From: Croceibacterium selenioxidans
GTDB taxonomy: Bacteria > Pseudomonadota > Alphaproteobacteria > Sphingomonadales > Sphingomonadaceae
Assembly: GCF_018599195.1 (NCBI RefSeq)
Contig: NZ_JAHFVK010000001.1
Coordinates: 1,612,001-1,676,000 of the forward strand
Direction of reading: 5' to 3'
Length of the DNA: 64,000 bases
Positions 21,528 through 35,789 of the stretch are shown one piece after another. The notes under the pieces are model-generated. The model saw only the letters and a list, made by a program, of their open reading frames with translations. It was not told the DNA's origin and did no database searches. Every line of letters begins with the position of its first letter. Within the stretch, counting starts at the first letter, position 1. The position numbers were made by a program, and so were the translations under genes.

Positions 21528-21809
21528 TCAACGCTCCTTCTTCTTGTACATCGCCAGCATCCGCGCCGTGACCGCGAATCCGCCGAAAATGTTCACACTC
21601 GCCAGCACTACACCGGCAAGACCGAGCCACTTGGCCACCGGATTACCTGAGGCCGCCGCCGCGATCAGCGCACCGACGATGATCACCGAGGAGATGGCAT
21701 TGGTCACCGCCATCAGCGGCGTATGCAGCGCGGGAGTGACCGACCAGACGACGTAGTAGCCCACGAAACAGGCCAGCACGAAGATCGAAAGGATCGTGAT
21801 GAAGTCCAC
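21528..21809 (-). CDS. pntAB: NAD(P) transhydrogenase subunit alpha part 2
   Basis: The membrane part of PntA as a separate 93-aa protein with three to four helices (ITILSIFVLACFVGYYVVW to the cytoplasmic YKKKER end). Starts GTG at 21809, sharing one base with the stop of the DUF559 ORF. The GGGGAGG that acts as its likely ribosome-binding site, 7 nt upstream, belongs to the flanking dispersed repeat. Normally it follows pntAA directly; here a VOC gene and a DUF559 ORF intervene. Confidence 0.95.
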   Translation of the reverse strand: MDFITILSIFVLACFVGYYVVWSVTPALHTPLMAVTNAISSVIIVGALIAAAASGNPVAKWLGLAGVVLASVNIFGGFAVTARMLAMYKKKER

Positions 21810-22303
21810 TAGTTAACCTCCCCGGCACGGGGAGGGGGACCAGCCGAAGGCTGGTGGAGGGGGCCCTCCGCCAACGCGTCGATTCTGGCCGCAGTATCGA
21901 CCGCGTCGGCTATGACGCGCGCTGCCGAAATCCGCACAACCCTGAACCCGTTTTCCTCAATGTACTTTTCACGCCGAGCATCGCGCTCTGCCCGTCCCGC
22001 CGTGTCGTGAACGAACCCATCGACTTCGATCACCAGCCGCGCCTGCAGACAGCAGAAATCTGCGATGTAGGGGCCGATCGGATGCTGCCGGCGGAACTTT
22101 ATTCCTTGGGGGCGCTGTCTCAATGCGCGCCAAAGCAGCCGCTCGGGGATGGTCATTCCCCTGCGCAGTTTTCGCGCGTTGTAGACTACGGGACGTTGTG
22201 CGGGGCGCGAGCCCCCTCCACCACGCTTCGCGCGGTCCCCCTCCCCGTGCTGGGGAGGCAAAACGGCGCCGCCGTTCTTCTCGTCCACGCTTCCCCCCAC
22301 CAT
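21809..22303 (-). CDS. DUF559 (Vsr-like nuclease-fold) protein between inverted repeats
   Basis: A 164-aa ORF with a DUF559 core: ARKLRRGMTIPERLLWRALR, then FRRQHPIGPYIADFCC, the acidic LVIEVDGFVHD and ENGFRVVRIS. This is the PD-(D/E)XK endonuclease-like fold with Asp in ADFCC and Glu/Asp in IEVDG as candidate metal ligands. Both ends of the ORF read through copies of a dispersed palindromic repeat (N-term LPPQHGEGDRAKRGGGG, C-term LHQPSAGPPPRAGEVN). The two copies are in opposite orientation. A later ATG at 22156 would drop the N-terminal repeat part and the first core residues. It splits the pnt genes. Biochemical role unknown; no methylase nearby. Confidence 0.75.
   Translation of the reverse strand: MVGGSVDEKNGGAVLPPQHGEGDRAKRGGGGSRPAQRPVVYNARKLRRGMTIPERLLWRALRQRPQGIKFRRQHPIGPYIADFCCLQARLVIEVDGFVHDTAGRAERDARREKYIEENGFRVVRISAARVIADAVDTAARIDALAEGPLHQPSAGPPPRAGEVN
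21817..21865. repeat. Dispersed palindromic repeat, arm at the 3' end of the DUF559 ORF
   Basis: Two hairpins: CTCCCCG-GCA-CGGGGAG (21818-21834) and ACCAGCC-GAA-GGCTGGT (21839-21855), ending GGAGGGGGC. It is in reverse orientation relative to the copy at 22211-22259, and supplies the Shine-Dalgarno-like GGGGAGG of pntAB. Confidence 0.8.
22211..22259. repeat. Dispersed palindromic repeat, arm at the 5' end of the DUF559 ORF
   Basis: Inverted copy of the arm at 21817-21865: GCCCCCTCCACC, a hairpin ACCACGC-TTCG-CGCGGT, CCCCCTCCCC and a GGGGAG stem. It lies inside the ORF just after its start, giving the residues HGEGDRAKRGGG. Together the arms bound a segment of about 443 bp. Confidence 0.8.
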
Positions 22304-27814: not shown

Positions 27815-27901
27815 TCGTCATTGCGAGCGAAGCGGCGCCATCCAGAGCGCTTCGCGTAATCGCTCTGGATTGCCGCGTCGCTTCGTTCCTCGCAATGACG
27901 A
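27815..27901. repeat. Long imperfect palindrome between ccrM and folP
   Basis: An 87-bp inverted repeat whose outer arms are CGTCATTGCGAG/CTCGCAATGACG (27816-27827 with 27889-27900) and inner arms ATCCAGAGCG/CGCTCTGGAT. It resembles dispersed intergenic palindromes known in alphaproteobacteria. It may attenuate ccrM-to-folP readthrough; no ORF is inside. Confidence 0.8.
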
Positions 27902-31049: not shown

Positions 31050-31189
31050 GCCCTCCACCATCCGCTTCGCGGACGGTCCCCCTCCCCATCGCTCCGCGAC
31101 CGGGCGGATTTTCAGGCTACGTCAGATCCTCCCTGTGAGCGACGCTCATGGGGAGGTGGACGCGCCCTGCAAGCGCGTGACGGAGGGTC
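31050..31189. repeat. Inverted pair of the dispersed repeat (no ORF inside)
   Basis: A left arm CCCTCCACC...GGTCCCCCTCCCC (31050-31087) and a right arm CCTCCC...GGGGAGG...GGAGGGTC (31128-31189) in reverse orientation, separated by 40 bp. Same family as the arms flanking the DUF559 ORF; it looks like a non-autonomous (BIME/MITE-like) copy. Confidence 0.75.
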
Positions 31190-35709: not shown

Positions 35710-35740
35710 ACCGGGTGCCCCCGCACCCGGTGGAGGGGGC
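35710..35740. repeat. Single arm of the dispersed repeat
   Basis: CCGGGTG-CCCCCG-CACCCGG (35711-35730) followed by TGGAGGGGGC, matching the second hairpin and GGTGGAGGGGGC end of the arms at 21817 and 31050. It lies 9 nt after a stop codon and may also act as terminator. Confidence 0.7.
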
Positions 35741-35789
35741 CCGCCAAGGGTCGCTACTTGGGCGGGTTCCCTCCGTTCGCGGCTTAGGC

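Follow-up and report, generated by a model that had tools for sequence, protein, structure and literature searches.

In REP/RAYT systems, the lineages of the enzymes and of the repeats match each other, and the RAYT genes are mostly single-copy, vertically inherited and resident at one locus for a long time. The relevant sections of two descriptions of these systems (the REPtron and the REPIN) report that the nuclease gene is always flanked by two inverted palindromic repeats and that the repeats are also dispersed, often as inverted pairs (PMC2817692, PMC3733652). The CGTC REPs of alphaproteobacteria are palindromic repeats reported without a dedicated transposase, the stems of which almost always open on AT pairs and bear a head of the CGTC type (PMC3733652, in part). 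A further family, the BoxC/PIT/TM repeats (TMECO), is described in the main text of Holder et al. 2015 as orphan repeats that combine a hairpin with a mirror purine block, are G/C-rich and form close inverted pairs; they occur in more than 260 bacteria, with 23 copies and five inverted pairs in Escherichia coli MG1655, have been linked to instability, and in E. coli, according to the same text, their surroundings yielded no mobility genes (PMC4666352). That main text mentions neither DUF559 nor ycjD, and among the titles and abstract openings that searches of open PMC papers listed, none links DUF559 or ycjD to repeats. On the enzyme side, YcjD was handled as a PD-(D/E)XK member in 2005 (PMC1189080, in part), and Caulobacter VsrA is itself a DUF559 protein, whereas classical vsr genes adjoin their cytosine methylase (PMC12907096, in part).

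The locus analysed here lies in a stretch of 64,000 nucleotides from Croceibacterium selenioxidans, referred to as the window, and consists of a DUF559 gene between inverted repeat arms. This unit has a REP/RAYT-like architecture with an unrelated enzyme and is not a RAYT. Like REP/RAYT repeats, the arms are also dispersed, often as inverted pairs; in contrast, the enzyme is of the PD-(D/E)XK type where theirs is an HUH tyrosine transposase, the arms carry a mirror third block, and of 334 arms only 2 have GTAG no more than 8 nt from the outer end (12 when GTGG is also allowed). An earlier note on this DNA had proposed just such an architecture, in which a Vsr-like nuclease stands where a Y1 transposase would be, and the proposal is supported by the great excess of arms over random windows, by the pairs of like orientation and by a repeat presence and type that follow DUF559. 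The same note's suggestion of a new class of element fares less well, as the repeat is not new in structure and resembles the BoxC/PIT/TM triplex repeats. However, those were described as orphans, whereas the arms here frame a DUF559 gene, and the DUF559 genes here lie between repeats rather than beside a cytosine methylase. The arms lack both the initial AT pairs and the CGTC-type head, and an assignment to the CGTC REPs is ruled out by the published structure of the latter (PMC3733652, in part).

The DUF559 cassette and its repeat in the window

Positions 21817-22258 of the window hold a DUF559 gene between inverted arms of a dispersed repeat (Table 1), which confirms a claim previously made from the letters alone. 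The open reading frame (ORF), the neighbours of which are pntAA2 and a glyoxalase-family gene, matches Pfam PF04480 (DUF559) over amino acids 41-141 with an E-value of 2.8e-30 and 104.8 bits (cut-off 20.6); the Pfam search of this ORF yielded otherwise only MTES_1575, below its own cut-off, and no HUH tyrosine transposase. The two arms, each 48 nt long, face in opposite orientation with 346 nt between them and are 88% complementary. Each consists of an outer hairpin (CCTCCCC...GGGGAGG), a short inner hairpin of variable sequence and a block of purines in which the 3' side of the outer hairpin recurs in mirror order. As had been stated, the frame runs through both arms, and by reading of the sequence the last ATG, GTG or TTG ahead of the DUF559 domain is a TTG at codon 15, outside the arm and one base beyond it.

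Table 1. Coordinates of the DUF559 cassette and of further repeat copies in the window
Feature	Position	Strand	Detail	Basis
DUF559 ORF (PD-(D/E)XK, Vsr-like), 164 aa	21809..22303	-	domain about 21881-22183	ORF list, Pfam, model
Type-B arm adjoining pntAA2	21817..21864	+	outer hairpin 21817-21835, inner variable hairpin 21839-21855, third (mirror) block 21856-21864	
Second, inverted arm	22211..22258	-	third block 22211-22219, inner hairpin 22220-22236, outer hairpin 22240-22258	
Dispersed type-B arm, first half of the ORF-less pair	31050..31113	+		pattern match, comparison with congeners
Second, degenerate arm of ORF-less pair	31124..31189	-	order reversed relative to DUF559 arms	
Possible half arm, weak	35710..35742	-	inner hairpin and third block	sequence match

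A strict arm pattern, CCTCCACC-N(4-24)-GGTCCCCCTCCCC, was found at 15 places in the genome to which the window belongs and at none when the same pattern was searched backwards, so the repeat is not a product of chance. The ORF-less inverted pair reported for positions 31050-31189 is real, but its arms stand in the opposite order to the DUF559 arms, with the hairpins inside and the third blocks outside. At the same intergenic site, congener G004 carries a pair in the usual order, and relative to it the halves in the window are swapped, as though the outer halves had dropped out of a tandem of pairs. The pairs of congeners G001 and G004 at this site are different ones, while G005 has none and G002 and G003 have other repeat-like sequence. 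The single arm reported for 35710-35740 retains an inner hairpin and a third block, but it is weak because it is a half arm at best and has two mismatches. Separately, positions 27819-27842 hold a possible CGTC-type REP, with three mismatches to what we take to be the typical CGTC-REP pattern, and the translation of the overlapping ORF resembles such repeats.

Pair geometry was counted within 88 typed matches for neighbouring copies no more than 500 bp apart (n = 34). The same orientation class, with the third blocks facing inward, accounted for 32 of these pairs, with one pair reversed and one direct. Gaps in the 32 alike-facing pairs measured 16-103 bp in 25 and 354-396 bp in seven, and at least five of the latter seven enclose a DUF559 match. 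An inner hairpin paired from end to end was present in 31 of 52 distinct copies, compared with a mean of 5 and a maximum of 11 in shuffled sequences.

Common to the arms is one grammar, a pyrimidine/purine hairpin followed by a purine block that mirrors its 3' strand. With 20 of the 334 arms untestable, the third block mirrored the hairpin better than shuffles of the same tail did on average in 302 of the remaining 314 (mean identity 0.92 vs 0.71), and among 312 arms it lay on the inner side in 262 and on the outer side in 19, the two sides being tied in 31. The arms have the grammar of the intrastrand-triplex repeats BoxC/PIT/TM, a likeness that is structural and comes without a shared alignment; triplex folding in vitro has been reported by others for TMECO (PMC4666352, in part).

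Arms around DUF559 genes across genomes

DUF559 loci were gathered from a contig search (close relatives only), the genus, 119 genomes of one bacterial family and further searches. To score arms, the upstream 300 bp were locally aligned to the reverse-complemented 300 bp from the downstream side, with a threshold score of at least 20, and random windows at least 500 bp away, drawn from the 56 sufficiently long loci only, served as the control. From 162 candidate loci, 160 were testable (L102 had no domain and one further locus had too short a flank), and 129 of these 160 reached the threshold, compared with 0 of 560 random windows; in the 56 loci that supplied the control, DUF559 itself reached it in 46. 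The pairing of inverted repeats with DUF559 recurred in an enlarged set, with arms at 167 of 208 loci (46 of 54 named, 121 of 152 from the family and 0 of 2 from E. coli). Loci of Xanthomonas, Pseudoxanthomonas, Luteimonas, Thermomonas and associated MAGs were not treated as independent, and because all 31 of them represent one locus in a single context, contexts were counted instead of loci. By single-linkage clustering, which may merge unrelated places, the 208 loci formed 74 contexts, and arms were in the majority in 58; counted within the family only, arms were present in 49 of 56 contexts. Among the other named hosts with arms were Novosphingobium, Erythrobacter, Brevundimonas and MAGs labelled Elusimicrobia and Deltaproteobacteria.

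The arms also recur away from DUF559 genes. In 22 genomes of the Xanthomonas group, a 22-nt arm core has between 1 and 63 exact places each, and its reversed control has one place in one of the 22. In the family, dispersed type-B copies were present in 53 of 102 DUF559-bearing genomes vs 1 of 17 DUF559-free genomes, and dispersed type-A copies in 31 of 102 vs 0 of 17. The reversed-pattern control is invalid for type A, where it matches as often, because the type-A motif is a near mirror of itself. The earlier note had raised the possibility that arms are equally common without any relation to DUF559; for the two patterns searched this is not the case, as copies of type A or B are present in 60 of 102 DUF559-bearing but only 1 of 17 DUF559-free genomes.

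Enzyme lineage, catalytic residues and repeat type

In order to compare repeats with enzymes, the arms were clustered and a tree was built of 152 family DUF559 domains, type B being six arm clusters merged by a common core. All 30 of the 30 type-B-armed proteins fell into one clade (SH-aLRT 99), which corresponds to one change on the tree vs a shuffled mean of 25.7, with 0 of 500 shuffles as low. Type T likewise showed one change, type A five and type A2 four; type C arms showed no clustering (four changes, with 35 of 500 shuffles as low), and the arm types taken together, type C included, gave 8 changes vs 52 when shuffled. The B clade comprises 43 rows, of which 30 have type-B arms, seven a related arm (F) and six no arms. 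For 51 elements with their nearest protein in another genome, the arms were closer to those of that element than to those of same-genome paralogues in 47 cases and less close in four.

A common tree is to be expected of linked arms and genes whether or not they work together, and since arm and gene are co-inherited anyway, evidence in trans weighs more. Of 18 genomes with at least 23 type-B copies, 15 carry B-clade DUF559, vs 4 of 42 genomes with zero copies (p 4.6e-8), the 42 having been drawn from 49 such genomes with DUF559 and five short domains having been left off the last tree. By reading, two of the four zero-copy exceptions have F-type arms (L337, L327), one has B-like arms (L336) and one weaker arms (L339). 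Three genomes have many type-B copies without B-clade DUF559, namely G016 (100), G017 (31) and G081 (26), all matches of which were examined. Together, the comparisons support the conclusion that repeat presence and type follow DUF559.

Across 35 aligned proteins, 11 columns are invariant, including E19, E58, D60 and H64. Among armed DUF559 genes, 163 of 167 have E58, D60 and H64 intact, vs 33 of 41 armless ones. In one armless clade of seven genes, E19 and H64 are missing in all and D60 also in five; six of the seven have flanking genes common to L002, whose neighbours are a SufBD-family gene on one side and, on the other, an ABC ATPase gene that is SufC-like by position, with the same neighbour genes found at L076, L083, L084, L270 and L085, and the seventh, L272, gives a short match only. 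This loss of residues is statistically weak because the clade represents one or two events. L002 itself (1501-1818, C2:928726-929043) is the second DUF559 gene of the genome that contains the window, and it is without arms and without E19, D60 and H64.

An AF2 model of the window protein (pLDDT 86) matched structure 3HRL best (E 2.1e-5), then the homing endonuclease I-Bth0305I (3R3P, E 1.7e-4) and Vsr (1CW0, E 0.019), and 3HRL also matches the protein by sequence (E 2.3e-13). The Vsr model TIGR00632 gave 17 bits (E 0.005), short of its cut-off of 97.85. As modelled, the window protein is of the PD-(D/E)XK / Vsr-type fold and has the catalytic residues. A reading as a defence system was set aside, the PADLOC match having an E-value of only 0.008. 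Elsewhere, a single open frame of 316 aa (G024:C1:571818-572573) contains two DUF559 matches, the second of lower score.

A proposed explanation and comparison of sites

We consider it reasonably probable, with some reservation, that the cassette represents a REP-like element in its autonomous form and that DUF559 is a structure-recognising nicking nuclease acting on the arms. Its substrate would be the arm, a hairpin whose 3' tail could fold back as a third strand to give an intrastrand triplex. Once an arm is exposed as a single strand, as might happen on the lagging-strand template, DUF559 would nick at the inverted arm pair, and the DNA between and including the nicked arms would then be copied or moved to a new place. 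Short-spacer pairs would be non-autonomous passengers, and the DUF559 gene would simply be a long spacer. The gene would mostly stay at one locus for long, as RAYTs do, and the long residence that it seems to have would fit a system in which the pairs rather than the gene make up the active population. We infer binding, nicking, single-strand or triplex recognition and movement from the arms, their grammar and pairing, the match of arms to enzyme lineage, the co-occurrence, the conserved catalytic residues and one site that has three states in congeners. Counting against DUF559 as the mover of the arms are the 33 DUF559 genes with intact catalytic residues and no detectable arms, the replacement of H64 by R in L080, which is the only B-type protein of the two DUF559 in the repeat-rich genome G001, the three repeat-rich genomes without B-clade DUF559, and the one-sided repeats of E. 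coli ycjD.

At the L080 site, G001 has a DUF559 cassette together with a 135-bp pair, G000 has pairs only and G004 has neither. Among the matches listed, this 135-bp pair recurs at no fewer than 39 further places in G001, at 19 in G004 and at 8 in G000. The comparison does not fix the direction of change at this site or at pntAA2, no target duplication is visible at either (the GATC at the ends is palindromic), and no clean excision product was seen among the compared sites. The window DUF559 has no match at the pntAA2 loci of all five congeners, four of which were read directly; the earlier note had named DUF559 at the same place in all relatives, with decayed or absent repeats, as a pattern that would refute its idea, and these loci do not show that pattern. 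Among 30 loci compared, the window protein matches only its own locus and that of G012, the latter in two frames. A simple recent insertion at pntAA2 is nevertheless less likely, because many other genomes hold DUF559 at this place. A mobile or homing cassette is at this stage a conjecture: DUF559 is often long-resident (31 of 31 Xanthomonas-group loci, 16 pntA1/pntA2 junctions), and no target duplication was seen.

These junctions bear directly on homing, in which an I-Bth0305I-like DUF559 would cut an empty allele, for example the pntA1/pntA2 junction, and be copied in by recombination, with the arms as by-products or regulatory help. The second-best fold match, DUF559 at 16 such junctions plus two more (L327, L336) and the unmatched window protein there in five congeners are all consistent with it. 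To our knowledge, however, the I-Bth0305I system has no repeat arms, and the sites of DUF559 vary: B-clade DUF559 occurs in 18 contexts, and the distance from the right arm to the pntA2 start is 6-7 nt or about 19-21 nt, depending on the locus. Homing also leaves the ORF-less pairs, their orientation and the matching of arm and enzyme unexplained, and we regard it as unlikely. Residence at pntA1/pntA2 takes 8 changes on the B-clade tree vs about 13.7 when shuffled.

Housekeeping repair is a further account that we hold to be improbable. DUF559 would here be a Vsr-like mismatch nuclease, and the arms would be terminators or remnants of one ancient insertion, kept because they fold. The SOS response of a Caulobacter cytosine-methylase mutant depends on VsrA (PMC12907096, in part), and vertical residence in Xanthomonas and its kin as well as the weak match to the Vsr model would fit such a role; yet none of the 560 random windows near the same loci has such an inverted pair, the arm type changes with the enzyme lineage, and the dispersed copies track the presence of DUF559. 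More doubtful again is that another enzyme (a RAYT, an IS200-type or other transposase) moves the triplex repeats and that DUF559 merely sits in one of them, as the repeat-rich genomes G016, G017 and G081 without matching DUF559 and the 2 to 6 places, presumably repeat, that the ycjD query still gives in ycjD-less E. coli records might suggest, since arms stand in 49 of 56 DUF559 contexts within one bacterial family and no other arm-framed gene turned up within the random control windows.

The recurrence of the same pairing in many bacteria makes DUF559 a candidate for the enzyme that moves this widespread repeat family. We give roughly even chances to the broader proposition that DUF559 proteins are the dedicated mobilising nucleases of BoxC/PIT/TM triplex repeats across bacteria. 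A REP-like system would then have evolved a second time, independently, with a Vsr-type nickase that recognises a hairpin able to form a triplex, where in REP/RAYT a Y1 transposase reads a REP. If true, this would be a second route, by an unrelated enzyme, to the REP/RAYT life style, and a large family of proteins that still goes by the name "unknown function" would gain a role; the nuclease, lying between copies of its own variant of a BoxC/PIT/TM-like repeat, is a candidate open to testing.

In E. coli, ycjD lies between sapF and fabI, and 3333 of 5426 genomes cover at least 80% of the query. E. coli was rejected as a source of empty sites, because in four ycjD-less strains an efflux operon follows sapF (see also PMC12817139, in part), and this is not a clean empty allele. 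A shorter allele, found in strain 167, arose by deletion between short direct repeats and was likewise rejected as an excision. In K-12, ycjD (L148, 1081-1640) has triplex-type repeats downstream only. Just upstream of pntAA2 in G003 (L126) there is no DUF559, but a piece, GGTGGAGGGGGC, that resembles the inner arm half stands beside the start codon. A plasmid of Sphingomonas parapaucimobilis (L274, 1986-2381) carries a type-B-armed DUF559 at the same pntA1/pntA2 junction as the window.
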